In this document: one piece after another, positions 8,976-54,167 of the stretch
Position numbering within the stretch: the first letter of the stretch is position 1
Layout: every line of letters begins with the position of its first letter
From: Clostridia bacterium
GTDB lineage: Bacteria; Bacillota; Clostridia; Oscillospirales; Acutalibacteraceae
Direction of reading: 5' to 3'
Assembly (NCBI GenBank): GCA_017407755.1
Contig: JAFQVY010000019.1
Span: forward strand, 1 to 56,639
Length of the DNA: 56,639 nt
Program-made: the position numbers and the translations under genes
The notes under the pieces: model-generated
What the model was told of the DNA's origin: nothing
Databases searched by the model: none
What the model saw: the letters and a program-made list of their open reading frames with translations, nothing else

Positions 8976-9008
8976 ACTCCCGAAGTTAAAACTTCGGGAG
9001 TTTCTTTT
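8976..9008. terminator. Bidirectional terminator between convergent genes
   Basis: A 12-bp perfect stem, ACTCCCGAAGTT (8976-8987) with AACTTCGGGAGT (8990-9001). TTTCTTTTT follows on the plus strand and a TTTTTAT run on the minus strand, so it can end both the 8251 gene and the 9008 gene. Confidence 0.8.
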
Positions 9009-10597
9009 TAATATTCAAGTCCTGCAATAAATTTCTGAATTGCCGTGGCATCTCTTATGTTTACCTTACCGTCACCGTTAAAGTCAGAAGCTTCAAGTTC
9101 AAGCTCAGGTATACTGTGCTCGCTCATCTCATAGCCTGCCAGTCGCTTCTGAATTCTCGTTGCATCTTTTATGGTGATTTTGTTGTCATAGTCCACATTG
9201 CCGATAAGGAGATAATGTCCTGTTGTGGGGTAGTCAATCATTTCTAAAAATCTTTCAATGTTGTCGGGATAAGCCTCAAAGGCATCTTCCAAATTATAAA
9301 CCTTATCCTCGCTTGTGGCGTATACAAAATAGCCAAGGTCGTAGGGTGCATAGGTTTTCTCGTTTGCTACAGCGTAATTACCAATTCGCTTTACACAAGG
9401 TGTCTCGTCAATGGTGCTTTCTGCCGCAAGCACCATTACAAAATCAGGGGTTGCTTCGTTAGTATGACGAATTGAAGGACTGATTTGTCTGTATAAATGC
9501 TGCCAGCTTTCACCCATAATGTCAATATCAAGAAGCTCTAAAATCCTCTTGCCCCACTGACCGTAAATGGAAGTTCCGCCGGTAAGCTTTACAACCTCAT
9601 CAAGTTCGGTTATAAGCCCCTGAGTATATGCTTCGTAAAGAGTGTAAACCTTGCCCTCAGGACTTAAAGCATAAATAGCTACCGAGTTGTTTTCGCCAAT
9701 TCCGTAGGGAGCACCGCTTGTAAAATAGTAATCGCCAATTTGCTCCTGAGCTATTATTGCAGGATACATATAGTGGCTGAAATAAGCGTGGAAAATCTCA
9801 TAATCCCCGACACTTCCTAAAGGCTCACAGTAAATACTTTCGCCCTCCTGAGGATTATAGCCGTATCTGTCGCCAAAGGCGTAAAGGCACTTGTGCATAA
9901 GGGATAAATCTACGTCCTCATTAATTCTGTGATATTCAAAATTACTTATACCGTGGCTAAGAGAAACGCCCATTATCAAATCTTCATTCAAAGCTTCTTC
10001 AAGGGTATAAATCTCATCGTTTGTGCTTACATAAATGCCTAAATCATAGGGCGAAAAAGTAGCACTTCTGTGGTAGCAGTAATTGTCGATAATCACGTTA
10101 CAAGACATATTAAGGGGTTCTTCCCAGCTTGTGGCGGCAAACAACACCGTGCCGTCGTGGTACTTATCCGTTTTTTCAATCATTACCTGAGCATTATAGG
10201 AAGGCTTTCCAAGCTTTTGAACACAGTAGTCGTAAAAATCTTCCTTAAGCTCTGCTTTATAATCGTTTTTGGTGCCGTCGTTAAAAACCAAGGTACCGTA
10301 GTAACCTACGGCAAAAGAAAAGGTGTAGATGTAACCGTAGCCGTCTACGTATTCTCTATTAAGCTTTACACCGGGGTAGGTCATACTGTCTTCATAATCC
10401 TCCGACCTGCCTCCTGTAGCATACACATAAACATTATCCCAATACTCCGTATTTTTAAAGCCGTAGGTTTCAACACCCGGCTCTCCATCTTTGGAAGGGA
10501 TAAAAAAGTAATCTGTGCTTTCTTCGGCGTTTACAAAAAGTGCCGACATTCCCGTTAAAAGCGTTAACGCTAAAATAAAAGATAAAACTTTTTTCAT
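9008..10597 (-). CDS. Secreted CBM26-like dockerin protein
   Basis: 529 residues. Signal peptide 1-24. Residues 50-118 resemble the starch-binding CBM26 family: YWDNVYVYATGG, then YPGVKL, YGYIYTFSF and TLVFNDGT, matching its VYVYA / WPGV / IFNDG pattern. Three further related modules follow near 175-213, 288-340 and 408-455, each with a Gly-rich strand, a YVxxxxEIYTLEEAL-like segment and a helix. Residues 465-529 are a type I dockerin: two Ca-binding repeats, GNVDYDNKITIKDATRIQKR and DFNGDGKVNIRDATAIQKF. I see no catalytic domain. The dockerin would dock the protein to a cohesin scaffold outside the cell. It is paralogous to the product of the gene at 30746 and shares its unusual promoter. 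An AAGGAGA site precedes the ATG. Confidence 0.85.
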   Translation of the reverse strand: MKKVLSFILALTLLTGMSALFVNAEESTDYFFIPSKDGEPGVETYGFKNTEYWDNVYVYATGGRSEDYEDSMTYPGVKLNREYVDGYGYIYTFSFAVGYYGTLVFNDGTKNDYKAELKEDFYDYCVQKLGKPSYNAQVMIEKTDKYHDGTVLFAATSWEEPLNMSCNVIIDNYCYHRSATFSPYDLGIYVSTNDEIYTLEEALNEDLIMGVSLSHGISNFEYHRINEDVDLSLMHKCLYAFGDRYGYNPQEGESIYCEPLGSVGDYEIFHAYFSHYMYPAIIAQEQIGDYYFTSGAPYGIGENNSVAIYALSPEGKVYTLYEAYTQGLITELDEVVKLTGGTSIYGQWGKRILELLDIDIMGESWQHLYRQISPSIRHTNEATPDFVMVLAAESTIDETPCVKRIGNYAVANEKTYAPYDLGYFVYATSEDKVYNLEDAFEAYPDNIERFLEMIDYPTTGHYLLIGNVDYDNKITIKDATRIQKRLAGYEMSEHSIPELELEASDFNGDGKVNIRDATAIQKFIAGLEY

Positions 10598-10623
10598 ACA
10601 AATTCTCCTTTCAAGACCTTTGT

Positions 10624-10660
10624 ACTTATTAGACGTGAAAGCTTTACTTTTCTCACACCA
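10624..10660 (-). promoter_or_regulatory. ECF-type promoter of the dockerin gene
   Basis: On the minus strand: TGGTGTGAG (10652-10660), a 16-bp spacer, then CGTCTAATAAGT (to 10624). The same two blocks with the same spacing occur at 30686 before the paralogous dockerin gene. A CGTCTA -10 with 16-bp spacing is characteristic of ECF sigma factors. A TATAAT also sits just upstream on this strand (10663-10668), so a sigma-A start cannot be excluded. Confidence 0.65.
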
Positions 10661-10743
10661 AAATTATACCATTTTTTTAGAAATTCAAACAATTCGTATA
10701 AATACCCAAAAAACTTAAATTTGTTTTGTTCAATTTCACAGAC

Positions 10744-10773
10744 AAAAGGCGGCTTCAAACGAAACCGCCTTTT
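10744..10773 (-). terminator. Terminator of the phage operon
   Basis: AAAAGGCGG (10744-10752) pairs with CCGCCTTTT (10765-10773). On the minus strand the stem ends in TTTTGTC. The T-run is short, so strength is uncertain. Confidence 0.5.
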
Positions 10774-10775
10774 CG

Positions 10776-11195
10776 CTATTTTATCATAACAACCTTATAC
10801 TGCACGCCGTTTTCGTTAAGACTGCCGCTTACGGTAAAGCCTTTCCCCGAAGCCGAAACGCTGAGCCCTACGCTGGCACCAAGCCCTACATAGCCCATAG
10901 CTGAATATCCGCCTGAAAGCACCTTACCGCTTGCAAAAACCGCAATATAGCGAAAGCTTTCGGTAAGAGTAACGGTTTTTGACGCTTCGCCCGTACCCGT
11001 GTAAATATAGGTCATAAGCAAATCCTTAAGGTATCTCTTTTCCTCGGCCGTAACGTGGATAGCCGAGTTATTGACGTGATTTCCAATAGCCGTATCTATA
11101 GCTAAATTATCGCTGTTAAAATCATTTCTCATGGGTCGGTCGGTTTCTACCCACTGATTAAGTTTTAAATTAGTCGTTTTATTTGTTGATGGCAT
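10776..11195 (-). CDS. Short tail fibre / receptor-binding protein
   Basis: 139 residues. The N-terminus TTNLKLNQWVETDRPMRNDF followed by NSDNLAIDTAI, and HVTAEEKRYLKDLL after it, is the common baseplate-attachment module of Firmicutes phage tail fibres. The rest is a Gly/Ser-rich beta region (SGGYSAMGYVGLGASVG) suited to a trimeric tip. It is the last gene of the operon, as fibres usually are, and much shorter than typical fibres, with no chaperone domain seen. Confidence 0.65.
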   Translation of the reverse strand: MPSTNKTTNLKLNQWVETDRPMRNDFNSDNLAIDTAIGNHVNNSAIHVTAEEKRYLKDLLMTYIYTGTGEASKTVTLTESFRYIAVFASGKVLSGGYSAMGYVGLGASVGLSVSASGKGFTVSGSLNENGVQYKVVMIK

Positions 11196-11207
11196 AGTTT
11201 ACTCCTT

Positions 11208-11774
11208 TCACACAAGATAATCTATTTTTTCCCAAGTATAGCCTTTGCTGTCGATACTTAAAAAGGTGTTGTTATGTGCATCGGACTCAGACCAGTCAAA
11301 GCCCCAAAAAACCACGTCCCAATTCAGGTGAGCAGGCAAAAGCACCTTAGCCTGTGACAAAATCCACTCACGCTCAGGCAATGAGTAAACGTCCTCTGTA
11401 AGATTAAGCACAAGCCTTTGCTCCTTGGGGTATTCCTCAACTCTACCCTCAACGCCCATAAGCTTCATAAGCCTCTCAAAGCCTTTGAGGGTAAAGTCGC
11501 CTGCACCAAAGCTTAGTCTTTCAGTAAGCATCTCACGTCGCTTTTCAAGTGGCAAATCCTCTCGCACATTGCCAACTAATCGCTCTGTGTTTTCAATGCC
11601 GAAATCCTCTGCGGTTTCTATAAAGGCTTCTTTCAGAAGGGTGTCAAGCGTGTCTCTTAAACTGTCAAGCCCCACTGCAAAAGCTGCCAGCTCAGCGTAA
11701 ACAATACTGCCCTTATTAAGATTATAAACTCCTAAGGGACTGAGCTTATTTATCATTGATTCAAGGCTTCTCAT
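11208..11774 (-). CDS. Baseplate protein, DUF2313 / XkdU-YmfQ family
   Basis: 188 residues. Pattern typical of YmfQ/XkdU proteins: a helical N-terminus (SMINKLSPLGVYNL, ELAAFAVGLDSLRDTLDTLL), then IENTERLVGNVREDLPLEKR and REMLTERLSFGAGDFTLKGF, and a C-terminal beta part ending in a Trp-rich WDVVFWGFDW. In myophages this protein sits beside baseplate J at the particle edge. Its ATG overlaps the stop of the J gene by 4 bp (ATGA), implying translational coupling. Confidence 0.75.
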   Translation of the reverse strand: MRSLESMINKLSPLGVYNLNKGSIVYAELAAFAVGLDSLRDTLDTLLKEAFIETAEDFGIENTERLVGNVREDLPLEKRREMLTERLSFGAGDFTLKGFERLMKLMGVEGRVEEYPKEQRLVLNLTEDVYSLPEREWILSQAKVLLPAHLNWDVVFWGFDWSESDAHNNTFLSIDSKGYTWEKIDYLV

Positions 11775-12835
11775 TCGCTACCTCTTATAATAGAAATGGT
11801 TCCGGGTACCGGAAACAATGTTTTCTCAGCTTCAAAATCCCCGTTAAGCCCTGCCACAAAATTAAAGGCTTTAACACCCGGCGTATGGTACACAATTTCA
11901 GACACCTGACACAAGCGTACCCCTGCACCTACACCTCGGTGCGCAATAAAATCCGAAATGTTTTTTCGGCATCTGTCTTTAACATCGTCAAAACCGTATC
12001 CCTCTTGCAGAATAACTTCAAGGTACAAATCAACAGGAGAAGGCTGTGCCTTTTTTACAAGGACGTCAACATTAACCTCTCGCTCTTTGGAAAGCAAGCT
12101 CTGCACCGAGGTAAGAGTTTCGTCGGAAACAACACTGCCATCCCCTGCTATGTAAACGTCTACGGTGCCACTGCCTCTGCCAAGAGCGACTGCAGATGCA
12201 GAACTTACTCCGTTTACTCCCTCAGCTAATGCTTCATAATAGGCACAGTTAGTTGAATTGGCAGGAAATCTTATGCTGTTCTGAATTCTTTCTCTCAGAC
12301 TTTCGTCGCTTTCAGCATCACATCCGCCTGTAAATGCTTCGCTGTTTTCAACCAAGTCAATACCTGCGGGGGGAGTTATCATCACCGAGATTTTCCCCTT
12401 AAGCACGTTGTATTCTCTGCCTGTGCCAATGCTTTTTGCACTTACGGTAACCGAAAGCTCACCTGCAAAAAGCACAGCATCCTTAGTAGTTTCAAATCTT
12501 AACAGCGAGCCGAATGTAGCCACAATAGTGCCCTTGGGGATACTTACGTTTTCTGAAAGTGCTTCACTTACCGAGAAAGTAACCTCGCCAAAAGCAGGCG
12601 TTGCCTCACGCCTTAAGAGTCCTCGCTCTTTAGCGTGCATATCAAGATATTCCCCCTGTGCAGTAGAGACAAACATCTGTCTTTTAAGCCACATCAGATT
12701 CACTGCACTTGAGTAAATTTCACCGGCAACAACCCTTAGTCTTATGCCGATGTCAGAGTTTTCAAAGGGAGTTATACCTGAAAGCTCCGTATATTTATCT
12801 GTCATACTTTGTAAAATGTCATCATAGCTCTGCAT
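11771..12835 (-). CDS. Baseplate assembly protein J family (XkdT-like)
   Basis: 354 residues, usual length for the family that forms baseplate wedges in myophages and contractile injection systems. Seen: MQSYDDILQSMTDKYTELSG and FENSDIGIRLRVVAGEIYSS at the start, RQMFVSTAQGEYLDMHAKER near 52 and RREATPAFGEVTFSV near 75, FTGGCDAESDESLRERIQNS near 165, and TVDVYIAGDGSVVSDETL near 225. AGGTGA precedes the ATG, which overlaps the preceding gp25-like frame. Confidence 0.88.
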   Translation of the reverse strand: MQSYDDILQSMTDKYTELSGITPFENSDIGIRLRVVAGEIYSSAVNLMWLKRQMFVSTAQGEYLDMHAKERGLLRREATPAFGEVTFSVSEALSENVSIPKGTIVATFGSLLRFETTKDAVLFAGELSVTVSAKSIGTGREYNVLKGKISVMITPPAGIDLVENSEAFTGGCDAESDESLRERIQNSIRFPANSTNCAYYEALAEGVNGVSSASAVALGRGSGTVDVYIAGDGSVVSDETLTSVQSLLSKEREVNVDVLVKKAQPSPVDLYLEVILQEGYGFDDVKDRCRKNISDFIAHRGVGAGVRLCQVSEIVYHTPGVKAFNFVAGLNGDFEAEKTLFPVPGTISIIRGSE

Positions 12836-13166
12836 TTATAGTCACCTGCGCCCTTCTTGTTTCATTAATGCCCCTGAGTAAAAGCCACACAAGCAGCTTT
12901 CCTCCAGCGACTTTTTCAATTTTTTCAACCTCGGCATCAAAGTCTTCTGTATCCGCAAGGGTTTCTCTGATAAGCATAGTAGCGGTTTTTTCGTTATCTG
13001 CCAAGTAAAGCTCTGTACCCAAATCCTTGTTATATATAAAACTGCCCTTTTTGATTTTTGCACAAAGCACCGTGCGGGCAAGCAGTGCATCAATACCCTT
13101 TGCGAAAATATAATTACCGTTTTCAGCAACGGCTATATCTCCGTCTGAAATCAAAATATCCGTCAA
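12822..13166 (-). CDS. gp25/XkdS-like baseplate protein (DUF2634 type)
   Basis: 114 residues beginning at a TTG with AGGTGA upstream. Composition and order match the small gp25-like lysozyme-fold wedge protein before baseplate J: DGDIAVAENGNYIFAKGIDA, LLARTVLCAKIKKGSFIYNK, then DLGTELYLADN. It overlaps the spike gene upstream by 4 bp and the J gene downstream by 14 bp. Function is assigned from size, pattern and position. Confidence 0.65.
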   Translation of the reverse strand: MTDILISDGDIAVAENGNYIFAKGIDALLARTVLCAKIKKGSFIYNKDLGTELYLADNEKTATMLIRETLADTEDFDAEVEKIEKVAGGKLLVWLLLRGINETRRAQVTINAEL

Positions 13167-13501
13167 AGGCTCACCTGCTTTCCGTTAATAAGCACCGAGC
13201 CGTCATTTTTAAGCACAATGCTGGCACCACCCTGAGAGTAAAGCATAAGCTCGCCGCGGCTAAGCTTTAAAGGCACCTGTGACACCACACCTACACAAGC
13301 CTCTCCGCCGTCAAAGGGCACAATAACCGCACCCTCGCCTACAGGAGGCACGTAGGCTATGCCGTAAGGTGCCACCACCGCCACGTCTCTGTGCTGGGTC
13401 GAGGCATCCACCTGTACGCTTTTTACGCTTGACGCCGTAATACTGCCCTTGGTAGCAGGACTTACCGACTTTTCTTTATTTAAAAATGATGTTAGCCACA
13501 A
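13163..13501 (-). CDS. Baseplate spike / gpV-like protein (XkdR position)
   Basis: 112 residues, TTG start with AGGAG 8 bp upstream. It has an OB-fold-like beta core (HRDVAVVAPYGIAYVPPVGE, GAVIVPFDGGEACVGVVSQV) and a C-terminal GGASIVLKNDGSVLINGKQV segment. Short repeats of that kind form the beta-helical needle in phage spikes. It sits between the hub and gp25-like genes, where the spike is expected. Confidence 0.68.
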   Translation of the reverse strand: MWLTSFLNKEKSVSPATKGSITASSVKSVQVDASTQHRDVAVVAPYGIAYVPPVGEGAVIVPFDGGEACVGVVSQVPLKLSRGELMLYSQGGASIVLKNDGSVLINGKQVSL

Positions 13502-13503
13502 AA

Positions 13504-14415
13504 CTATTTCTCCTTTCGCTTAAGTGTAAGCTTTGTATACTCGCCGTCTTTGCCAAAATAGTATTTTAAAGCCGAAACATAAAGCTCTTCTTCAATACTT
13601 TCTACCTTTGCCGTTTTGCCTAAAGCATCGCCTAAACAGCCTCTGCAAACCGCCTCGGCATAAAAGCTTTTTGCCTTTGCCTGAGATAAAATTTTGTCGG
13701 CATCTTCCACTGAAGACGAGCTCGTTGAGCTTGCATTCAGATATCTTATTTTGTTTATACCCTCATTTTCGGCATCATTATCGGCAATAAAGCTTATGTA
13801 TCCTTCGCCTTCTTTAAGCTTCAGATACACCCTTGATACCCTTGAATGTCTTAAATTATAGGTTTTAAGGCTTTCCAAAAGAATACCCTCGCCGCCTAAA
13901 ATAAGCTTATCTGTATTCTCTTTACCGCTAATATAAAGCGCTTTGCCCTCACATCTTGGAAAGGCACCATAAACTTTTTCTGCAAACCTTTTTATAACAG
14001 AAAAGCAGGACACACCCTTGCCAACGGTAAAGCGTCCGTTAAACTCTTTGTTTTCGCCTCTAAGCTCAAAACCAAAGGGCTTTGCATAGCGATTAAAAAC
14101 ATCCTGTGCCGAAGGGTTGAGAAAGCTCATTGGATATGCTTCGCTGTCTATAAGAAGCGAAGCAGAGCTGCGTGCCACAAGCTGAGTAACAAAGCTTTTT
14201 CCAAAGCTTTCTATCTGCTCGTCAACCTCAGCCTCAAAAACAAGGCTTTCACCTTTTAAAACCTCAATCTGCTTCAAAAGAGGAAACCCTGTGCCCGAAA
14301 GCGTAAGCTCCACGCTATCCGCCGGTGCATCTTCTTCTGCTTTTAAAGTAAGGCTCAGGGGTATTCCCAGATGCAGTTTTTCACCCTTTATGTCAATTGC
14401 ATTTATAGTCAGCAT
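13504..14415 (-). CDS. Baseplate hub / late control D-like protein (XkdQ type)
   Basis: 303 residues from the ATG at 14415, chosen because GGGAG precedes it; the longer frame begins at a TTG inside that site. Beta-rich N-terminus (LHLGIPLSLTLKAEEDAPAD, SVELTLSGTGFPLLKQIEVL), then the hub signature PSAQDVFNRYAKPFGFELRG near 107 and KGVSCFSVIKRFAEKVYGAF near 135. This protein would cap the tube channel and hold the spike. It overlaps the LysM gene stop by 7 bp. Confidence 0.75.
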   Translation of the reverse strand: MLTINAIDIKGEKLHLGIPLSLTLKAEEDAPADSVELTLSGTGFPLLKQIEVLKGESLVFEAEVDEQIESFGKSFVTQLVARSSASLLIDSEAYPMSFLNPSAQDVFNRYAKPFGFELRGENKEFNGRFTVGKGVSCFSVIKRFAEKVYGAFPRCEGKALYISGKENTDKLILGGEGILLESLKTYNLRHSRVSRVYLKLKEGEGYISFIADNDAENEGINKIRYLNASSTSSSSVEDADKILSQAKAKSFYAEAVCRGCLGDALGKTAKVESIEEELYVSALKYYFGKDGEYTKLTLKRKEK

Positions 14416-14924
14416 ATTCTGATCTCCCAACCCGCTTCAAGCTCATCTGTGCGGCGAACAAAGGGATTTAAGTCTACTAAATTTTCAACTTTTACACCGT
14501 ATGCATAGGCAATATCAAAAAGAGTTTCACCCTTTGATACCTTGTGGGTTTTTACAAAAGCTTTTGCCGCTTTAGAGTCTGCCTCAACAAATGTAAAGCT
14601 GTAGCATATTTTGTCAGGTGTTACATCCGCAAGAACTGACAAAGAGGTAAAAAAAGCCTCCATAGGCTTTATCTCAGGCAACGAAAGTATCCCCTTGCCG
14701 CCTTGTGACTGCAAAGCATAAAGCTTTGCATACTGCTCTAAGCAGTCTTTGCCTTTTATTTCTCCCTTACCTTTGATAATTCTGCATTTCTTGCCCAGAC
14801 TTTCAAGCTTTTCACCGCTATAAGGCAAGATATAGTTAACGGTATTCTGCTGGCTTAAAACCTCAATAGAAAGAGGATTGCACCAAAAAGTAAAACCCTT
14901 GTATCTCATTAAAGCAAGCTTCAT
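14409..14924 (-). CDS. LysM-containing baseplate protein (XkdP-like)
   Basis: 171 residues. Residues 1-120 follow the XkdP N-terminal pattern (MRYKGFTFWCNPLSIEVLSQ, LESLGKKCRIIKGKGEIKG, IKPMEAFFTSLSVLADVTPD, YSFTFVEA). Residues 126-171 are a LysM domain (HKVSKGETLFDIAYAYGVKV, LVDLNPFVRRTDELEAGWEI). In PBSX-like phages this gene follows the tape measure; here a 31-codon gene and a 238-residue protein take that place. AAGGAG precedes the ATG. Confidence 0.82.
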   Translation of the reverse strand: MKLALMRYKGFTFWCNPLSIEVLSQQNTVNYILPYSGEKLESLGKKCRIIKGKGEIKGKDCLEQYAKLYALQSQGGKGILSLPEIKPMEAFFTSLSVLADVTPDKICYSFTFVEADSKAAKAFVKTHKVSKGETLFDIAYAYGVKVENLVDLNPFVRRTDELEAGWEIRIC

Positions 14925-14935
14925 ACTACCACTCC

Positions 14936-15031
14936 TTAATTTTCAAAATCTGCCGAGTACCGCCTGCTGTCACGCTGAAGCTCCAGACTAAGATTTTCCG
15001 CAAAGGTTTCTTCCAAAATTTCGTTATTCAT
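14936..15031 (-). CDS. Phage micro-ORF, 31 residues, unknown
   Basis: An ATG at 15031 with AGAGG upstream opens a 31-codon frame ending at the TAA at 14936. The product is acidic and helical (MNNEILEETFAENLSLELQR at the start). It overlaps the stop of the upstream tail gene by 8 bp, and the AAGGAG of the LysM gene lies at its end. It thus fits the coupled layout of the operon and fills the only gap. By position it could be a remnant or minimal tail-assembly chaperone; that is a guess. Confidence 0.55.
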   Translation of the reverse strand: MNNEILEETFAENLSLELQRDSRRYSADFEN

Positions 15032-15740
15032 AACATACCTCTTTCGCTTTTATTTCATAAGAAAACCTGAGATTTCCCCATTTGCTCAATTCACGCGTTA
15101 CGTGGCTTACTTTGCACTCTTTGTAAATTTCTTTTGAATTTTCAAAGCAAAGCTTAAGGGTAAATGTGTCCGAAAGCTTTAAAGCGGTACGTGTCTGAAG
15201 CTTTATGAAAAATCCATTTTTCCCTGTATTTTCATAAGAATATCCGTTTAAAAGCGAAGGGCATTTCTCTAAAAGCTCTTCGCTTTCTATTTCAAATGAA
15301 ACAACATTCTTAACTAAAGCGTCATCTATATAAACACTGCACGCCGTATCCGCTACGCTTATATCTTCGACCGTAACCTTAATATCGCAAAAAAGAGAAG
15401 CGTTTGTTTCGTTGTACTGAGGCTCCTGTATCTCAATACTGCTGACACTCAGGTTTTCTCTGATTGCCTCTGAAATCCACAACGCTACCTCAGAAACCCG
15501 CTTGCCCCCTGCCCCAAAAGGGGCAAGAAGGCAAAGCTTAAACTCTGTGCTTATTTCAGGCTCAGAGCCTTCATAATTTTTAAGATATTTTGATTTACCC
15601 AAACCTATGGATAAAGTAAAGGAGCAGACAGGGTTCTGGGATATTTCGCGTTTATTTGAATATATACATACAACTGACGAAAGCTCAGCCTTAGACTTAA
15701 CCGCAGCGGCTATGTCTTTCATAACAATATCAGGCTTCAT
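15024..15740 (-). CDS. Tail terminator/neck protein, possibly fused to a tube-like domain
   Basis: 238 residues from the ATG at 15740 with AGAGGAGG upstream. The first half (to about 118) has the mixed helix/strand pattern of small tail-completion proteins (MKPDIVMKDIAAAVKSKAEL, GGKRVSEVALWISEAIRENL). The second half is all-beta, with VYIDDALVKNVVSFEIESEE and a final KWGNLRFSYEIKAKEV, loosely resembling tail-tube proteins, which end in a similar strand. If so, it would supply the only tube-like domain of the cassette. No family assigned with certainty. Confidence 0.45.
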   Translation of the reverse strand: MKPDIVMKDIAAAVKSKAELSSVVCIYSNKREISQNPVCSFTLSIGLGKSKYLKNYEGSEPEISTEFKLCLLAPFGAGGKRVSEVALWISEAIRENLSVSSIEIQEPQYNETNASLFCDIKVTVEDISVADTACSVYIDDALVKNVVSFEIESEELLEKCPSLLNGYSYENTGKNGFFIKLQTRTALKLSDTFTLKLCFENSKEIYKECKVSHVTRELSKWGNLRFSYEIKAKEVCYE

Positions 15741-16089
15741 AAAAATCCTCCTCTGAAGGTTCATTATAGGGCGTAAGCACCGCCCAAGTGTAAAGTGCCT
15801 TTGATTTTATACTTACAGTTTCACTGCGTTTTAAAATATACCTTTTACCTCCGCCTTCAATAAAAGCGTCGCCAAGAACCGGAAGGTTTATTTCAGGGGG
15901 GCAAATAAGCAGATAATGACCTCCGTCAAAAAATCCGTCGGGCAGTTGTTTTCCGCCTAAGTAGAGTTTATTTTTATAAAGCAAAGGCTCTATAATGCCC
16001 TTAACAAAAAACCTTCCCTTCAAAGCGTTAACGGTTATACTTTCACCGTACCTTTTAAGCTCGTTAGAAACATTTCTGTAAATGCTCAA
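15730..16089 (-). CDS. Head closure / head-tail connector protein
   Basis: 119 residues, beta-rich (ITVNALKGRFFVKGIIEPLL, GKQLPDGFFDGGHYLLICPP, RYILKRSETVSIKSKALYTW). Size, fold pattern and position right after the gp6-like connector suit a head-closure protein of the SPP1 gp16 / XkdH type. The ATG overlaps the upstream stop (ATGA). Confidence 0.55.
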   Translation of the reverse strand: MSIYRNVSNELKRYGESITVNALKGRFFVKGIIEPLLYKNKLYLGGKQLPDGFFDGGHYLLICPPEINLPVLGDAFIEGGGKRYILKRSETVSIKSKALYTWAVLTPYNEPSEEDFYEA

Positions 16090-16454
16090 GCCTTTACCCT
16101 CCCAAAATAAAAGGAAGAATCCTTAAGCACATCAGAAAGAGCCGCACATTCAGCCTCAAAAAGTCTTTTGGCTGCTTCAAGCTTTTTGTCATTTGCAGTA
16201 AATTTAACTTCGCCTGCCTGAAAACTCTCAGCCTCACAAACAGATGTGTAAAGGCAATACTTATAAAACGCCAAAGCAGCTGCTGCGTATGAAAGCCTTA
16301 GACGCCTGTCTTCGCTCAAGGTGTTTTCAGTCACCTTCAGCTTAGCTCTTATATCCTCAATAGCCTCTTTGCAAAGTTCCCCGTAACGGCTTAAGTCTTC
16401 GCCGTCAAGCTCACTTAAAAGCTTAAAGCGTCTTAAACAATCGTAAAAACTCAA
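16086..16454 (-). CDS. Head-tail connector, gp6-like adaptor
   Basis: 122 residues, TTG start with GAGGTGA upstream, largely helical (YGELCKEAIEDIRAKLKVTE, RLRLSYAAAALAFYKYCLYT, AAKRLFEAECAALSDVLKDS). This is the usual form of the adaptor under the portal (XkdG/gp6 position) directly after the capsid gene. Confidence 0.6.
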   Translation of the reverse strand: MSFYDCLRRFKLLSELDGEDLSRYGELCKEAIEDIRAKLKVTENTLSEDRRLRLSYAAAALAFYKYCLYTSVCEAESFQAGEVKFTANDKKLEAAKRLFEAECAALSDVLKDSSFYFGRVKA

Positions 16455-16467
16455 GCTCTGTCACCTC

Positions 16468-17484
16468 TTAGTATGTAAGCTTCTTTGCGGCGTCCTTATA
16501 AATCTTTGCAAAACCTGCAACAGATGTAATTGCGGCACGCTCAAGCTGACGGTCAATAAGCTTGTCGTAATCTGTTACTACGTCGCCTGCAACCACCATT
16601 TCAAGTGCACAGTTCTTGTCCATACCGATAATAAGGTCTGAGTCAATTGCCTGTGTGTGAATAAGATTTGCACCTAAGGGTGTAACCATTTTGCCTGTGC
16701 CGTGGAAAGTCTGACCTGCATTAGCATCCTTAAGCTCATTAGCTTCCAAAAGCTTCTGCATTGCACCTGTGGGAGCTAAAATTGTATTAAGCTCGTAAGG
16801 AGTAAGACCTGCCCAAAGAGACACAAGGTCACTGTAGGTAAGCTTACCGGCTTGTGCAGATACAATACCCTCACAAGGATTATTGTTGCCGTCGCCGTTT
16901 AAAAGCACGTCAACAGCATCCTTAAGCTGAGCACGGGCAATGTAAGCACCAATCTGCTTTAAGGTTACCGTAAAAAGGTCAAGACGCTGAAAACGTAATG
17001 CCTCGTAGGAAGAAACAAGCATTCTGCCGCGTTTCTTAAGCTTTACAAGGTTTTCCTGAGTACTTACCTTGGTTTCGGGGATATATGAGCCCTCGTTTAC
17101 CACGAGAAGGCTCTTGTCCTGTTCAGAAGGAGTGGAAGTGATGCTTCTGTAATCCATACCTGAAATCTTTGTTTTTGCGGCAATAATGCTTGAGAGCACG
17201 TCTGCCTCGGCAATACCCTGACGTACAGCTCTGCTTACATACTCAGGGAAAAGTGCGGCAGAGTCAGTTGTCTGGAAGAATTTTTCAACCTTATCGGAAG
17301 CCGCACCGCTTACCTTAATATCAAAACGCTTAAGCTGACGTGAAAAAGCATCTAAGCCCTCAAGCTCTGTGCCGACGTAATTTACAGAAGGGTCCAGCTC
17401 CTCTAAAACCTCAGTCATACTTTTGCCAAGGTTTGAGTACATACCCTTTTCTAAAGAAATATTTTCATAAAATGCCATATTCAT
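16468..17484 (-). CDS. Major capsid protein (HK97-fold type)
   Basis: 338 residues. Alternating helix and strand segments with VSRAVRQGIAEADVLSSIIA near 83, LKKRGRMLVSSYEALRFQRL near 147, VTLKQIGAYIARAQLKDAVD near 172 and an ITSVAGFAKIYKDA C-terminus. This matches the phage capsid class found downstream of a decoration protein and protease. A second ATG at 17478 is better spaced from the GGAGG (9 versus 3 bp) and may be the real start. It lacks an N-terminal scaffold of its own; the protease gene probably carries that role. Confidence 0.78.
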   Translation of the reverse strand: MNMAFYENISLEKGMYSNLGKSMTEVLEELDPSVNYVGTELEGLDAFSRQLKRFDIKVSGAASDKVEKFFQTTDSAALFPEYVSRAVRQGIAEADVLSSIIAAKTKISGMDYRSITSTPSEQDKSLLVVNEGSYIPETKVSTQENLVKLKKRGRMLVSSYEALRFQRLDLFTVTLKQIGAYIARAQLKDAVDVLLNGDGNNNPCEGIVSAQAGKLTYSDLVSLWAGLTPYELNTILAPTGAMQKLLEANELKDANAGQTFHGTGKMVTPLGANLIHTQAIDSDLIIGMDKNCALEMVVAGDVVTDYDKLIDRQLERAAITSVAGFAKIYKDAAKKLTY

Positions 17485-17496
17485 ATACCTCCAAAA

Positions 17497-17829
17497 TTAA
17501 AGAATAACGCCGATTGAATCGGTATCTGTTGACACTACAAGGCATTCCCTGCCCTGAGCATCAAACTGAACGCTTTTGTCAGAAGCCGCAGAAAAAGTCT
17601 GGTAGCCTACGTTAACTGCACCCTCAACAGGGATTTCGGCATAGCCCTTAATCTGCACTGCCGCATAACCCTCTCGCACGTTTACACAAACGCCAACAAC
17701 CTTGTCGCCCTCAGTACAGGCACCGACGGTGTTGTCGTCAATAAGCTTTACAAGTGTGCCCTTTTCAACAGTAGAGTCTGCTTCAAAGGTCACTGTATTT
17801 TCACAAAATCCGTTAAATCCGATGTTCAT
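17497..17829 (-). CDS. Capsid decoration-like protein
   Basis: 110 residues, nearly all beta, with VTFEADSTVEKGTLVKLIDD and GCTEGDKVVGVCVNVREGYA-type patterns (ACTEGDKVVGVCVNVREG). This recalls DUF2190-like or head-decoration proteins encoded just upstream of the capsid gene. It would stabilise the capsid surface. Assignment rests on pattern and position. Confidence 0.6.
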   Translation of the reverse strand: MNIGFNGFCENTVTFEADSTVEKGTLVKLIDDNTVGACTEGDKVVGVCVNVREGYAAVQIKGYAEIPVEGAVNVGYQTFSAASDKSVQFDAQGRECLVVSTDTDSIGVIL

Positions 17830-17840
17830 AATTACCTCCG

Positions 17841-18818
17841 TTAAATTGTAAATTCATTGTTTTTAGAAGCCTTGCTTCTTTCTTTTTTGCCGCTGTAAAG
17901 CTGAGGCTTTAAAGGGAGCACGCCCTCAGCCTTTTTTGCATAGGCCGAAATAAACTCCTTAAGCTGAGCTGTGTCAAGTGAAGACATAGCCGCCTTTACT
18001 GTGCTTTCTGAAATCATAGGCTCAGTAAGTGCCATAAGTCTTGTAAACTCGGCTTCTAAGCTTAATCTGTATTCTCTGCCGGCCTTGGCATTTTTCTCAA
18101 GCTCCTTGATATAGTCAAAAAGCTTCGCACATTCAGCCTTTGTAAAAGCAACCTCGCTTCTTTTTTCAAGGCTTTTCATTATACCTTCCACAGTTTTTTC
18201 ATTCCTTTTGTCAAGCTTTTTAAAAGACTTTGTAACCCCTGCCTCACGCTGAGCAGGTACCGCCACAAAGCTCCATTCGTAAGCATCATAAGGGCTCATA
18301 AGCTCTGCATAGCAAAGCTTGTCGCCATAGATTTTGCCCTTTGTGTGATTGCAACCAACATCCGAGTAAGCCTTACCGCACACTGAGCAAACGCTCTCAG
18401 AAACGGCACAGCCTACGCTTACCTCTTTTCTTATACCGCTGTCAATAGAAATAATAGTCTCTCTGTTTCCCTCGGTATTGGGAATATAGGCTTTTGCAGT
18501 AAGCCTGAAATAGTCATCCCCCGTCAGGGTTTTCTTACCCTCAACCGCCTCTACCTTACACATAAAAATTCGCGCGGTCTGGTTTTTGCTTTTGCTTTCG
18601 TGGTCAACAATACCTGTTTTACCTACAAAAAGCTTTTCAAGCTCAAACAGAGATTCCACCGTAAAACGCTCAAAGTCCCTGTCAACGTCGTTGTCGCAAA
18701 GGGTAAGAGAAAAAACATAAACCTCATCGGCAGTAAAAGGGCGTCTTGTATATTTGTTTATAAGCTCAAGCTCTTCTGCAGTCGGCTTTGAATTGGAAAT
18801 TTTAGTATCTTCTGTCAA
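17841..18818 (-). CDS. Prohead protease with C-terminal scaffold-like region
   Basis: 325 residues, TTG start overlapping the portal stop (TTGA) with GGAGG upstream. The N-terminal part (VYVFSLTLCDNDVDRDFERF, LFVGKTGIVDHESKSKNQTA) resembles capsid maturation proteases, with a candidate catalytic His in VDHE and an SVGCAV segment near 133. A CSVCGKAYSDVGCNH Cys/His cluster near 140 could bind zinc. From about 200 the chain is charged and helical (MKSLEKRSEVAFTKAECAKL), like an internal scaffold. Serine nucleophile not proven. Confidence 0.62.
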   Translation of the reverse strand: MTEDTKISNSKPTAEELELINKYTRRPFTADEVYVFSLTLCDNDVDRDFERFTVESLFELEKLFVGKTGIVDHESKSKNQTARIFMCKVEAVEGKKTLTGDDYFRLTAKAYIPNTEGNRETIISIDSGIRKEVSVGCAVSESVCSVCGKAYSDVGCNHTKGKIYGDKLCYAELMSPYDAYEWSFVAVPAQREAGVTKSFKKLDKRNEKTVEGIMKSLEKRSEVAFTKAECAKLFDYIKELEKNAKAGREYRLSLEAEFTRLMALTEPMISESTVKAAMSSLDTAQLKEFISAYAKKAEGVLPLKPQLYSGKKERSKASKNNEFTI

Positions 18819-19957
18819 TTTTTCGCCTCCAGTTCTTTTTCAAGGCACATCGCCTCGGCGTTAATCTTTCTCGCATTAGCAAGCTCCACCTCGTCCATAA
18901 GGCTTATGTTGCTCCAGTTAACCTCAAAGGGCGAAAGAATTCCCATAAGCCTTAAATGCATAGAACAAATCCTTTTAATAACAGGTGTCAGAACACTTCT
19001 GAAATATTCAAGCTCGCTTGTTAAAATATCTGCCTGCACGCTGCTCATTCGCTCTGTGCTTGACCAGGAAAGTCCCAGCAAAAAGGGCGGAATCGAGAGT
19101 TTTGACACAATCTGCTCTAAGATGTGCTTAATGGGAATATCGCACTCCAGCTCCTGATTATCAGCACCTATAACCTTAATTCCCACATCACCCACACAAA
19201 CAAAATCGTAAACTCCGCTTTTGTCGCGCATAGCCTTGCTCCATTCAGCAGCTATGGCTTTTGCACGCTCCTGAGGGTTAGCAATGTCCCCCTCAGAAGG
19301 CTTATAGGTAACTGCATAACGGATATTGCCGATACGGTCAAAGTTTTTGCCGATAGAACCTAAAATCTTAAGCAAAATTGAGCTTACAAAAGGCAGTCCT
19401 CTTAAAATGGGCGTACCCTGAAGCGAGCCTGCCTCAGGAGAAAGCAAGGTAACCGAAAGAAGCTGCTGAAAAGGAAGCTCAATATTTTCTCCAACGCTCT
19501 TTTTAAACACCTTAACCTCCAAAGGGGAGTCGCCCTCTTTAAGCTCAATGTCTTCAACGTTTGCATTATAAAGAGCGTAAACGCCTTTAGCGTCGGCATA
19601 GGGTATCATTTCACCTACAGCCTCGCCAAAGGTCAGCAAATCCTCAAGATAAGTCCACACAAAATTTTTAAGTCCAAAAGCTGTTGCGCCCACCTTAACG
19701 TTTTCTGAAAAATCCCTCAACACCTTTTCGCACTCAGGGTCAGCAGAGCTAAGCTCAAACTCGCCCACAAGACGGACAATCTTGTTAATTGCCGCATCTA
19801 TAATGGGCACTGCTTCCCTTAAAGCTCTGTACATTTCTCTTTCGGCAAAGGCAGTCTGCCTGTTTAAAACCGAGAAAGGATGTGCCGTATAGCTGCCGCT
19901 TTGTGCTGTTTGCACCGCGGCATACTGTGCCTTATTTTTCTTAGAAAATAATCTCAC
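18815..19957 (-). CDS. Portal protein
   Basis: 380 residues from a GTG at 19957, chosen because AGGAGG lies 7 bp upstream; the longer frame to 19990 has no site. Typical portal pattern: REAVPIIDAAINKIVRLVGE near 50, WTYLEDLLTFGEAVGEMIP near 97, SKLSIPPFLLGLSWSSTERM near 280 followed by SSVQADILTSELEYFRSVL, and an acidic helical C-terminus. It forms the DNA entry ring where terminase docks. It overlaps the terminase large gene by 17 bp. Confidence 0.85.
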   Translation of the reverse strand: MRLFSKKNKAQYAAVQTAQSGSYTAHPFSVLNRQTAFAEREMYRALREAVPIIDAAINKIVRLVGEFELSSADPECEKVLRDFSENVKVGATAFGLKNFVWTYLEDLLTFGEAVGEMIPYADAKGVYALYNANVEDIELKEGDSPLEVKVFKKSVGENIELPFQQLLSVTLLSPEAGSLQGTPILRGLPFVSSILLKILGSIGKNFDRIGNIRYAVTYKPSEGDIANPQERAKAIAAEWSKAMRDKSGVYDFVCVGDVGIKVIGADNQELECDIPIKHILEQIVSKLSIPPFLLGLSWSSTERMSSVQADILTSELEYFRSVLTPVIKRICSMHLRLMGILSPFEVNWSNISLMDEVELANARKINAEAMCLEKELEAKN

Positions 19958-21212
19958 AGCCTGTCCTCCTGTCAGCGGCAAGTGCAACAAACGAGTCGCC
20001 GCCGCTATTTAAAATAGTTGTGACAAAATATCTTATGTCGTCCATAGCGTGGTCGTTTTCCTTAACGGGTACGTCATCACCGCTTAAAGCCCAGCGGTAA
20101 AGCGAAAACTCCCTTACCGAATTTTCGCAGTTTTTACATATTCTTACCCTGCCTTCTTTAAGTGCTGAGGACACCTGCCTTACTCCGTCAGTAACCGAGT
20201 TTTTGGCAGGAATTACAGAATACTCACCTTTTCTCTTAATAAGCTCAATAAAGCTTGCCGCCGACGGGTCAACTACCACACACTTTACCCGTCTTGCGCC
20301 TATGAGCTTTTTAAGTGCCTCGTAGTGCTCCTCGTCTGTACGCTGAGCACCCTCAAGGCGTGAACTGTAATAATACTCGTCAATTCTATACCACACCCCC
20401 TCCTTTTTGCCCCAAAGCCCGAAGGAAGCAGGATTAACCGTGCCATAGTCACAGCTGACACAGTAATCCTCAAAAGGAGGCTGAGGTTTATCCCAAAAGG
20501 CATCCTCACTTGCCATAAAGGGATAAACTGCACCTTCAAGCTCTACCCATTCGCCTTTAATGAACCGCCTGTAAAAGGTGCCCGTATAAAGACGCTTGTA
20601 CCTCTCAACGGTTTCTTTGCTCAGAGAGGGATTGTCCTTCATAGTAAAATGCAGGTACAAAGCGTTTTTTTGCTCACACTTTTTAATCCACTCCTGATAA
20701 AACCAGTGGGCAGGGTATTCGGGGTTGCAATTGAACCAGAATTTGGAGCCGGAAACCGAGCACCTTGCCAGAGCCTGCTCAACAAATGACCGCGGCATCA
20801 GGGCAACCTCATCAAGCAACACCCCGCTTAGGGTCATACCCTGAATAAGTGAAGCGGAGGCTTCATCCTTACCGCCGAAAAGGTAAAAGCGGTTAACCCT
20901 TGTGCCGTAAGAAATCAGCAAAAGATTTGAGGAAATCTTCTGCTCCACCTCAAAACCCAGACCTTTCAGTACCGATAGTATAGGACTCACAACATTTCGC
21001 CTTGCTGAGCGTATCGTCTTTGAGCATATAGCAAAAGCAGCATCAGAAAATCGGTAAAACGCCCATGCAATAAATGAAATTCCCATCGCAAAGGTTTTGC
21101 CCGACCTGACTGCTCCGTCGCATATAACTGCATCACGACTCTTTTCCTTCGAGTCCTCACACCACCAGCTCATTACCTTGAGCTGTTTTTCTGACAATGC
21201 TTCAATACTCAT
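19941..21212 (-). CDS. Terminase large subunit (PBSX/Terminase_6 type)
   Basis: 423 residues. ATPase half: Walker A VICDGAVRSGKTFAMGISF near residue 30, Walker B SGVLLDEVALMPRSF near 130, and an SKFWFNCNPEYPAHWFYQEW coupling motif near 150. Nuclease half: VSCDYGTVNPASFGLWGKKE near 228, CVVVDPSAASFIELIKRKG near 285 and a DHAMDDIRYF motif near the end, carrying the acidic metal ligands. All key residues look intact, so DNA packaging activity is plausible. ATG overlaps the small subunit stop. Confidence 0.92.
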   Translation of the reverse strand: MSIEALSEKQLKVMSWWCEDSKEKSRDAVICDGAVRSGKTFAMGISFIAWAFYRFSDAAFAICSKTIRSARRNVVSPILSVLKGLGFEVEQKISSNLLLISYGTRVNRFYLFGGKDEASASLIQGMTLSGVLLDEVALMPRSFVEQALARCSVSGSKFWFNCNPEYPAHWFYQEWIKKCEQKNALYLHFTMKDNPSLSKETVERYKRLYTGTFYRRFIKGEWVELEGAVYPFMASEDAFWDKPQPPFEDYCVSCDYGTVNPASFGLWGKKEGVWYRIDEYYYSSRLEGAQRTDEEHYEALKKLIGARRVKCVVVDPSAASFIELIKRKGEYSVIPAKNSVTDGVRQVSSALKEGRVRICKNCENSVREFSLYRWALSGDDVPVKENDHAMDDIRYFVTTILNSGGDSFVALAADRRTGCEIIF

Positions 21213-21694
21213 CTTTTTTCCTGCTCTTTTTCTTCAAGCATTCGTGCACTGTGGCAAATAGCCTCATAAAGCGAAGCCGCCCCGTCTGCCTCAATGCCCT
21301 CGCTGAGTTTTTCAAGAGCCTTCATGCGGTCAAAGAATTTTATCTCCATAGAGCCGTCTTTGGGTCTTTTAATCTCTGACACCGAGTATAGGTCCATTTT
21401 CCTCAGATGTTCGGGGGTAGGATTTTCCATATAAAGCAAGGAAACCGCGTCGGCAATACTGCCAAATGCAAGCCTCTGATATCCCACCGCCGCCATTTTT
21501 GACATAGCTTTTCTCTGCAAAGAGCAAAGCCTGCCAATTTCGTCGGCAATGTCTGCTCTTGATAAAAGCTCGTTTCCAAGCTTTGCAAAATCCCCTGTAA
21601 AACCCGCCTTTTCTGCCGATGCGGCAGAATCAGCAAGGCTTAAATAGAGCCTGCAAAATTCTTTTTCCTTTGATGAAAGACCTTTCTTTTTCAT
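21209..21694 (-). CDS. Terminase small subunit
   Basis: 161 residues from the ATG at 21694 with GGAGGAG upstream; the open frame continues to 21988 but without a start signal. Helical DNA-binding protein of the Terminase_2 kind: GLSSKEKEFCRLYLSLADSA near 5, SAEKAGFTGDFAKLGNELLS, then IADEIGRLCSLQRKAM, and PKDGSMEIKFFDRMKALEKL near 115. First gene of the phage operon; it would choose the DNA that is packaged. Confidence 0.85.
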   Translation of the reverse strand: MKKKGLSSKEKEFCRLYLSLADSAASAEKAGFTGDFAKLGNELLSRADIADEIGRLCSLQRKAMSKMAAVGYQRLAFGSIADAVSLLYMENPTPEHLRKMDLYSVSEIKRPKDGSMEIKFFDRMKALEKLSEGIEADGAASLYEAICHSARMLEEKEQEKR

Positions 21695-21737
21695 CTGACT
21701 CCTCCTTTCTGTTTCACCTATACCCCTAAAAAAAGAA

Positions 21738-21797
21738 AAAATTGCATAAAAACATGCAATTTTCTGTACCTTATCAAAAATTTTTATTTTTTTGCAA
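21738..21797 (-). promoter_or_regulatory. Candidate promoter and leader hairpin of the phage operon
   Basis: Minus strand: TTGCAA (21792-21797), 16 bp, GATAAG (21770-21775) as a weak promoter. Directly downstream AAAATTGCAT pairs with ATGCAATTTT (21738-21763), followed by a T-rich TTTTTCTTT run: an intrinsic-terminator shape between the promoter and the first gene. It would block or attenuate expression of the whole phage cassette. Confidence 0.4.
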
Positions 21798-21854
21798 AAA
21801 AACAAGGGGATTTTTCCTAAATAGCCCTCATATAAATTGCTGAGGTGTTTACAA

Positions 21855-22631
21855 ATGAAAATTTTTTCACTTACCAAAAAAGAAATCTTAGCCGCAATGG
21901 GTGCATTTCTCATTGCAGGTGCGGCACTTTCAGTAGGCGGTGCCACCGTTAACAAAGCAGTCACCGCCGCCTCAACTGTGAGAGACATTCCTATCTACTC
22001 TGTAGAAACAGAAGAAAAAAAGGTGGCAATTTCCTTTGATGCCGCTTGGGGAAACGAGCAGACAAGCGAGCTTCTTGATATACTTGAACAATATAACGTA
22101 AAAGCAACCTTCTTTCTTGTGGGCCAGTGGGTAGACAATTACCCCGACTCGGTAAAGGAAATCGCAGCCAAAGGCCACGATGTAGAAAACCACTCAGACA
22201 CCCACGCCCATTTGCCGGAGCTTTCACTGGAAGGTATGAAAACTGAAATTGTAAACTGCAACGAAAAAATAAGAGCACTTACAGGTAAGTGCCCTACTCT
22301 TTTCCGCCCGCCTTACGGAGACTACAACAACGACGTTGTAGGTACCGTCAAAGACCTTGATATGTACTGTATTCAGTGGGATGTGGACAGTCTTGATTGG
22401 AAAGATTTATCCGCCGCAGACATAACCCAAAGAGTTACAAGCAAACTCCAAAACGGTTCCATAGTCCTTCTTCACAATGGTGCAAAAAACACCCCTGAGG
22501 CCCTGCCTTCAATTATAGAAGGCATAAAAGCTCAGGGGTATGAATTAGTACCGATTTCAGAGCTTGTGCCAAAAGGCACTTACCAAACCGACCACGAAGG
22601 CAGAATGAATATTGTAAGCTCAGAAAACTAA
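21855..22631 (+). CDS. pdaB: Polysaccharide deacetylase, PdaB-like (sporulation)
   Basis: 258 residues from the ATG at 21855 (TGAGGTG upstream). An N-terminal membrane anchor (about 13-33, AAMGAFLIAGAALSVGGAT) precedes a NodB domain: VAISFDAAWGNEQTSELLDI near 57 carries the catalytic Asp, ATFFLVGQWVDNYPDSV follows, VENHSDTHAHLP near 107 carries the metal-binding His pair, then FRPPYGDYNNDV near 150, WDVDSLDWKD near 178 and IVLLHNG near 208. Closest in layout to PdaB of spore formers, which modifies forespore peptidoglycan. Symbol by resemblance. Divergent from the phage cassette. Confidence 0.8.
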   Translation: MKIFSLTKKEILAAMGAFLIAGAALSVGGATVNKAVTAASTVRDIPIYSVETEEKKVAISFDAAWGNEQTSELLDILEQYNVKATFFLVGQWVDNYPDSVKEIAAKGHDVENHSDTHAHLPELSLEGMKTEIVNCNEKIRALTGKCPTLFRPPYGDYNNDVVGTVKDLDMYCIQWDVDSLDWKDLSAADITQRVTSKLQNGSIVLLHNGAKNTPEALPSIIEGIKAQGYELVPISELVPKGTYQTDHEGRMNIVSSEN

Positions 22632-54107: not shown

Positions 54108-54167
54108 ACTTGTGCCGCCTTTTCTTTTAAAAATAATACTTATAAATAAATACAAATATACACATTA

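Follow-up and report, generated by a model that had tools for sequence, protein, structure and literature searches.

A reduced, intact phage-derived cassette in Acutalibacteraceae is a candidate gene-transfer-agent-like packaging element with a stub tail

What can a bacterium make from the packaging motor, head and baseplate of a phage when no sheath or tape measure accompanies them? The question is raised by a stretch of 56,639 nt (contig JAFQVY010000019.1, hereafter the window) from a Clostridia bacterium of the family Acutalibacteraceae, whose own genome is a 1.56 Mb draft estimated to be 94% complete. At positions 10776-21694, the window carries a cassette of 17 contiguous open reading frames (ORFs), all on the minus strand and arranged head to tail. 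A first-pass annotation, made from the sequence alone, had suggested that this reduced, intact cassette could make a short-tailed particle or one resembling a gene transfer agent (GTA). Our analysis supports that suggestion as far as gene content can: with a probability of roughly 0.7, the cassette is a domesticated, vertically inherited, GTA-like packaging element with a stub tail. By this we mean that it would work like a GTA; we do not claim membership of any known group.

None of the 17 ORFs contains an internal stop, and neighbouring ORFs either overlap by 4-50 nt or are 2-13 nt apart, so the earlier description of 17 intact genes holds. Family searches clearly named the small and large terminase subunits (TerS and TerL), portal, capsid, a decoration-like protein, a LysM adaptor, the hub and baseplate J. 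The spike (Mu gp45-like), a sheath-initiator or gp25-like protein and a Mu gp48/I-like protein gave weak matches below cut-off, and the connectors, a 238-aa ORF and the fibre, with little or no family support, were named from their position and their relatives. As the first-pass annotation had it, packaging, capsid and baseplate genes stand here without sheath, tape-measure or integration genes: the family searches found no sheath, tape-measure, catalytic lysis or integrase gene among the 17 ORFs, and in the bacterium's own genome the sheath (PF04984) and tape-measure (PF10145) models were unmatched at 0.01 (in 14 control genomes they matched in 3 and 7, respectively). This genome holds one TerL and one baseplate J. 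For lysis, no catalytic gene was found in the cassette; its neighbours were checked by eye only, and no genome-wide lysis search was made. No direct repeats with one copy on each side of the cassette were found within 10300-22300.

The cassette is a phage-derived structural cluster in a host chromosome without replication or integration genes, as expected of a GTA. The set of integrase, replication and lysis genes with patchy distribution that marks an active temperate prophage was not found, nor were the tail sheath and tape measure of a PBSX-type contractile element. Unlike a phage satellite of the phage-inducible chromosomal island (PICI) or P4 type, it lacks an integrase and flanking repeats and has its own head and motor. 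The motor of a GTA should be complete, and the conserved motif residues of TerL indicate that it is: residues 36-40, G33, D134/E135, D255, D315 and D387/D391 were each conserved in at least 97% of 92 sequences, in agreement with the earlier view that the terminase motifs are complete. We take residues 36-40 and G33 to be the Walker A motif and the others to be Walker B and nuclease residues. The alignment comprised 92 of 96 rows, including five head-only loci; four without a TerL of 80% length were omitted, one of them from locus L125.

The puzzle is the cassette's middle part. From the neck (15730) to the LysM gene (14924), the first-pass annotation saw just a 238-residue and a 31-codon ORF, which is correct, and took the middle of the tail to be simply missing, which is not, since these ORFs appear to represent terminator-position and tube-like domains and a conserved peptide. 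In 15 of the 17 complete loci from the window's genus, two separate ORFs correspond to the 238-aa protein. Profile comparison with hhalign matched its N-terminal half to the relatives' separate first ORFs (92.6%, E 4.6e-7) and its C-terminal half to the separate second ORFs (96.4%, E 1.3e-9). These second ORFs in turn matched (99.0%, E 3.6e-18) the ORF found next after the sheath gene where relatives have one; the sheath itself is clear in L060 (phrog_279, 1.7e-19). A profile of this ORF from sheath-bearing relatives had just three PDB matches, all of them tail tubes (E 0.07-0.1), and weak tube matches in PHROGs. In Pfam, there was no match for the 238-aa protein, for the tube-like ORFs or for either connector (G, H); the terminator-position ORFs gave weak, unnamed matches in PHROGs, and PDB profile searches with the separate tube-like and terminator-position ORFs returned unrelated matches only. 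Judged from these profiles, the 238-aa protein contains a diverged tube-like domain, so that 'no tube' is not quite right, and the 'missing' middle seems largely explained by fusion of this domain to one in the terminator position. We infer that the N-terminal half, which has no family match, is terminator-like from its position alone.

The 31-codon gene is, on its sequence, a member of a conserved peptide family. An ORF with its motif adjoins the LysM gene in 32 of 133 scanned loci, many of which are truncated and one pair of which comes from the same record. In 11 of 18 sheath-bearing loci, the motif (D/Q/N)(S/A)RRY occurs in a 170-234-aa ORF between tube and LysM, at its C-terminal end wherever these ORFs were inspected; it was not found in the other seven. 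The tube-LysM interval is no longer than about 1.3 kb in the 18 loci, leaving no room for a tape-measure ORF of the usual size, and in the seven sheath-bearing loci that were read, the genes beyond the final baseplate or fibre gene do not belong to the cassette.

Is the cassette maintained, or is it decaying? We compared 31 loci (L130-L160), 30 of them from the window's genus. Thirteen were cut, including the one from another family (L159), and one was without core genes, leaving 17 genus loci that were complete, by which we mean that the sequence runs on for 1.5 kb or more past the final cassette gene on the 3' side (on the 5' side, L144 and L147 are truncated). Among all loci, L112 repeats L130, L117 repeats L140 and L231 repeats L181, both members of the last pair being counted in the classes, the TerL alignment and the tree below. 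All 17 genus loci have the same sheathless layout with tube and baseplate. Of their 255 gene slots, 247 are filled by a single ORF that reaches 80% of the median length or more; in five of the remaining eight no fibre was detected, and the other three belong to genes at contig starts. Nine of the 17 also have the host genes that lie downstream in the window, mfd included. We built a tree from rpoB (carried on a different contig of the bacterium's own genome) and compared it with trees of six head and packaging genes (21 genus genomes) and of four tail genes (19 genomes). The rpoB tree shared 13 of 18 splits with the head-gene tree and 11 of 16 with the tail-gene tree, compared with at most 2 in 300 label shuffles, and distances correlated with those of rpoB at r 0.84 (head) and 0.83 (tail) in Mantel tests. 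Pairwise ratios of nonsynonymous to synonymous substitution (dN/dS) were 0.02-0.46 where computable (16 genes, 12 hand-chosen pairs, some with saturated dS; the 31-aa gene was too short), with hub and baseplate proteins more variable than head proteins. The proposed dN/dS check across homologous loci, in short, returned purifying selection.

The first-pass annotation held that a decaying prophage should show frameshifts and that this cassette shows none. A remnant would account for the lack of integrase, replication and lysis genes and of much of the tail, and TerL or portal is broken in 2 of 108 loci, but the intact frames, dN/dS far below 1, congruent trees and a single copy throughout the genus and much of the family make this explanation barely credible. 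Decay within the genus is rejected by the dN/dS values and the intact slots. A search for what might have overturned the earlier description (a tape measure or sheath at another site, membership of a larger prophage, or mutations that break frames in relatives) turned up none of these in the bacterium's own genome and genus. That the cassette is one end of a larger prophage is rejected by host-type, non-cassette genes on the far sides of the loci read, and also by the lack of a sheath or tape-measure family match in the own genome. Long-term vertical inheritance, purifying selection and a single copy are what a GTA should show. Because conservation, copy number, congruent trees and selection all agree, the cassette has almost certainly been domesticated and selected.

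Its distribution points the same way within the genus. The portal is present in 33 of 36 genus genomes (the window's own and 32 of 35 others), in exactly one copy each, and in all 20 that are at least 90% complete; the three that lack it have completeness values of 85%, 89% (with 8% contamination) and 78%. Of the 43 genomes listed for the window's family, 35 carry it. Across a sample of the order (E 1e-20), the portal was found in 70 of 394 genomes, with one match in each, and in 41 of 168 genera. In the family labelled f26 (E 1e-5), 87 of 197 genomes had it, 85 of them with a single match and two with two partial matches: those in G500 are fragments of different portal parts, and those in G433 overlap and lie on two contigs, where a second copy or contamination is possible. 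A class-wide sample at a strict limit of 1e-60 gave 8 of 391 genomes, all inside the order; weaker relatives outside it would be missed at that limit. Among named records, that of the gut commensal isolate Anaeromassilibacillus sp. An172 (locus L121, contig NZ_NFKS01000003.1) holds every cassette gene but the 31-aa one. One Microcystis phage record has a portal 26% identical. The close portal family seems confined to one order, most sampled genomes of which lack it.

The same distribution bears on whether the cassette could be a satellite, or a small temperate phage using a helper's functions. It is short, its neighbours differ in 8 of the 17 genus loci, and many relatives sit in a viral-contig collection, of which all 80 retained contigs carry both the TerL and the portal family. 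No integrase or flanking repeats were found, however, the trees follow the host, and all 70 positive genomes of the order sample have one match, which together render such an element very improbable. Records filed as 'Bacteriophage sp.' (L161-L164; MT835952, MT835508, MT835769 and MT836604) hold the cassette or part of it; they are four of the five unannotated records of that name with this portal, all four come from Mexican faecal samples, and two have flanks whose genes partly match host loci. Their link to a particle-enriched study (PMC8361208) is unconfirmed and is by country and sample type only; in the main text of that study, as far as it was available, the MT835 accessions do not occur. 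If they do come from it, host DNA around the cassette was present in the particle fraction, or the fraction was contaminated.

Beyond the genus, the tail is reduced by degrees. We classified 55 loci outside it (54 distinct), of which four were cut and four were without core genes. Seventeen have sheath, tube and baseplate; five have tube and baseplate; eight have a baseplate without detected sheath or tube; ten (nine distinct) have LysM or hub only; three have LysM or hub plus tube; and four are head only. On a tree of TerL, portal, protein D and capsid, from which six cut tips were pruned, the presence of the sheath requires at least 8 changes (Fitch), or 10 losses if it was ancestral and the root is at the midpoint; support is below 0.7 at 16 of the tree's 89 internal nodes. 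Sheath, tube or baseplate is lost repeatedly among the relatives. Individual loci illustrate how. In L165 the LysM gene directly follows the neck; in L044 one ORF (5416-6120) matches connector H plus tube, a fusion unlike the window's; and L065 (5852-6691) is a head cassette whose terminator-position domain is joined directly to the C-terminal part of the fibre, which may be the smallest design to unite a head with receptor binding. In three small genomes, of 0.7-0.9 Mb (L226/G484, L228/G568 and L227/G501; also L211 and L213), the portal is the sole recognised cassette gene in the fetched stretch, intact amid host-type genes in two of the three. Two of these genomes carry further cassette genes at another site, where baseplate J is cut to about 200 residues, roughly half its length. 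On gene content, this would be a GTA-like gene set that minimal genomes have retained in dispersed form.

Two rival functions draw on this gradient. The capsid might be kept for a purpose other than transfer, such as DNA export, programmed release for neighbours or storage, with a vestigial tail. Head-only and hub-only relatives keep the conserved TerL, portal and capsid residues, and baseplate J was not found at 1e-8 in 9 of 20 genomes tested, all nine of them head-only, hub-only or hub-plus-tube. In three genomes of the same reduced types (G308, G525 and G470), baseplate J lies elsewhere, so a tail from another locus is possible there; in G470 it is accompanied by a sheath and seems to be part of another prophage. 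Set against a non-transfer role, hub, spike, gp25, J and I are all retained, under purifying selection, in the 17 genus loci, and L065 fuses a fibre domain to its terminator-position protein as if binding still mattered. We regard this alternative as unlikely. So too is a PBSX-like killer, in which DNA-filled heads with a tail stub would bind and kill related strains and deliver no genes. The gene order from TerS to fibre resembles that of PBSX, LysM and fibre could bind the wall, and the greater variability of hub and baseplate is what strain-specific targeting would produce. PMC12946183 raised the same alternative for the Faecalibacterium element FpGTA. Yet the sheath family is absent from the own genome and from all 17 genus loci, and some relatives without hub, spike and baseplate retain the packaging motor, the reverse of a killer's needs.

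For the GTA-like packaging element that we favour, we infer terminator identity, particle assembly, a one-ring tail, host-DNA packaging, delivery and release along the following lines. The element's own terminase would fill a small HK97-type capsid with DNA, probably fragments of the host chromosome; the neck proteins would close the capsid; and the terminator-tube fusion would form a single ring, to which the LysM adaptor, hub, spike, gp25-J-I baseplate and fibre would attach as a non-contractile stub tail. A tail terminator normally forms one ring and a tube many, so a one-to-one fusion of the tube domain to the terminator ring would limit the tube to one ring, and a tube fixed at one ring would need neither tape measure nor sheath. 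Tape measures span about 1.5 angstrom per residue, at which a 31-residue measure would extend over about one ring. Release would depend on lysis functions encoded elsewhere. From the genes, we think it likely that the cassette makes DNA-filled capsids and probable that these bear a stub tail; transfer of host DNA to recipients is a reading that we favour only slightly over its negation. Host DNA is the likely cargo because gut relatives package it: in the part of PMC12946183 available to us, Ruminococcaceae, Oscillospiraceae and Christensenellaceae of human faeces package random host fragments in small capsids, of 4.6-8.9 kb where sizes are given, with a packaging operon reported for Faecalibacterium only.

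Several observations weigh against this reading. Particles, packaged DNA and transfer are predicted here from genes alone. The portal is absent from 324 of the 394 order genomes and so is dispensable, and the loss of the whole tail in some relatives, with TerL motifs intact in the head-only ones, does not fit simple delivery. Other downstream neighbours in 8 of the 17 genus loci mean that the site changed in some branches. Of 108 loci (three of them repeats), two outside the genus have broken core genes, TerL as three ORFs in L125 and the portal as two in L195, through assembly errors or early decay. A stop falls within the aligned portal stretch in 3 of 34 matches from the genus survey, 7 of 70 from the order sample and 8 of 89 from f26. 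Eight genomes with such a stop were fetched; seven of them still have the portal as one ORF (of 294 aa, ending with its contig, in one and of 362-405 aa in six), and the eighth is that of L195. No catalytic lysis gene was noticed downstream of the cassettes of seven sheath-bearing relatives, and the own genome is a draft. Direct comparison of the C-terminal half of the 238-aa protein with sheath-bearing tubes was negative (8.3%), so its assignment depends on a chain of profile comparisons. Finally, tube and terminator-position ORFs are separate in the 15 genus loci noted above, and the one-ring argument applies strictly to fused forms only.

How does the cassette compare with known systems? 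PBSX of Bacillus subtilis has a sheath, tube, chaperone, long tape measure and lysis genes and packages host DNA; the cassette shares its gene order, LysM adaptor, hub, gp25-like, J and I-like proteins, whereas the sheath, tube, chaperone, tape-measure and lysis genes of PBSX are here absent or reduced to a fused domain. With the alphaproteobacterial agents RcGTA, CcGTA and BaGTA it has vertical inheritance, purifying selection and phage-derived head genes in common; these agents, which we compare by description only, are siphovirus-like, have a longer tail and belong to another phylum. Podovirus-like phages likewise have a functionally very short tail, but the stub here would be built of myovirus-type parts (LysM adaptor, gp25, J, I) and not of podovirus tail proteins. 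The nearest parallel in setting is FpGTA, from the same bacterial order. As far as the accessible part of PMC12946183 describes it, FpGTA has a short operon of TerS, TerL, portal, scaffold and capsid, small DNA-filled heads without visible tail, and no replication genes; a second operon carries its baseplate and lysis genes, whereas here the baseplate is inside the same cassette. We tested for a relationship indirectly, by joining two Faecalibacterium 16S primers as a pattern and scanning 396 f26 genomes. The pattern matched G1134 (genus g122, six copies, one of six genomes) and G437 (g178, one of two). No portal of the cassette's family was found at 1e-5 in G226 and G264 (g122) or G437 and G541 (g178), nor at 1e-20 in G226, G264, G328 and G375. 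By this indirect test, portal homology with the Faecalibacterium element was not found, the two look unrelated or very diverged, and the idea that the cassette is FpGTA was not upheld.

The genes and the support for their names are collected in the table. The TerS gene has a GGAGG-type site upstream of its start codon at 21694. In protein D, H73, S134 and a Cys/His cluster are conserved among relatives; a protease or scaffold function is presumed from position. The LysM protein matches PHROG 'endolysin' families solely through its LysM domain, and fibre Q is present in most, not all, relatives. L177 and L196 have the spike-like and gp25-like genes in the opposite order to the window. A role as defence genes was rejected, there being no PADLOC match for seven proteins.

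Table. Genes of the cassette in transcriptional order, with window coordinates and the evidence for each name
Gene	Product	Position	Strand	Evidence
A	Terminase small subunit, 161 aa	21209..21694	-	PF03592 3.5e-11, phrog_2606
B	Terminase large subunit, 423 aa	19941..21212	-	PF03237 9e-18, PF17289, phrog_2
C	Portal (start codon uncertain)	18815..19990	-	phrog_30703 9e-114; PF04860 below cut-off
D	XkdF-like, probable prohead protease/scaffold, 325 aa	17841..18818	-	phrog_16951 1.9e-96 (unnamed family)
E	Decoration/cement-like	17497..17829	-	phrog_4588 2.9e-16; PF09956 weak
F	Major capsid protein	16468..17484	-	phrog_3922 5e-98; PF25209 1.9e-15
G	Head-tail connector 1	16086..16454	-	Position, kept in relatives; Pfam/PHROG families unmatched
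H	Head-tail connector 2/stopper-like	15730..16089	-	Position, kept in relatives; Pfam/PHROG families unmatched
I	238-aa protein, terminator-position domain (15354-15740) and tail-tube-like domain (15024-15365)	15024..15740	-	Profile comparisons
J	31-aa ORF, RDSRRY	14936..15031	-	Conserved (D/Q)(S/A)RRY motif
K	LysM hub-adaptor, 171 aa	14409..14924	-	PF01476 3.4e-9; PF07157 just below cut-off
L	Baseplate hub	13504..14415	-	phrog_177 7.7e-7
M	Spike-like	13163..13501	-	PF06890 8.4e-5, below cut-off
N	gp25-like	12822..13166	-	PF10934 0.0016, below cut-off; position
O	Baseplate J	11771..12835	-	PF04865 1.6e-51
P	Baseplate I/Mu gp48-like	11208..11774	-	phrog_521 2.1e-12; PF10076 4.4e-7, below cut-off
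Q	Probable fibre/adsorption protein	10776..11195	-	Weak phrog_33092 match at N terminus; position

Both flanks are ordinary host genes, as first described. On the left lies a dockerin-type protein (9008-10597), followed by a further 238-aa protein, a 382-aa protein and mfd (3518-6973); on the right is a polysaccharide deacetylase. The dockerin-type protein, which stands between the cassette and the conserved mfd-side genes, is found beside only a few relatives' cassettes. It has a dockerin type I match and is related to a second protein of the window (30746-31750), the two forming one cluster. Farther off, an 888-aa ORF (51489-54155) adjoins what look like polysaccharide genes (about 42-54 kb) and by eye combines undecaprenyl-sugar transferase, glycosyltransferase and aldolase-like domains.

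The gradient of tails also allows a wider and more tentative proposal, which we hold possible with less conviction than the stub-tailed element: that the cassettes belong to a family of host-owned, DNA-packaging capsids, found across the order and not described before, in which encapsidation itself is the conserved function and the tail has been dismantled stepwise and convergently. Sheath, tube, baseplate and then everything would have been lost, leaving a one-ring tail free of a tape measure in the window's lineage. Other lineages would have been left with just a head, or with one whose terminator ring bears a fibre domain. DNA would then be delivered without an injection tail, for example by a capsid opening at the wall together with the recipient's uptake machinery. 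On this proposal the element, and not FpGTA, could be the source of the GTA-type packaging in Onthomonas, Ruminococcus callidus and CAG-115, which the available part of PMC12946183 reports without an operon. Our literature search found no paper combining gene transfer agents and Acutalibacteraceae.

Read as a GTA-like packaging element, the cassette would offer candidate genes for the packaging of host DNA that has been measured in human faeces, and its relatives show that such cassettes are filed, and may be counted, as viruses. By losing sheath, tube and baseplate in grades, and through fusions that may fix tube copy number, these loci provide a natural experiment on which tail parts DNA delivery needs and on how a tape measure becomes unnecessary.

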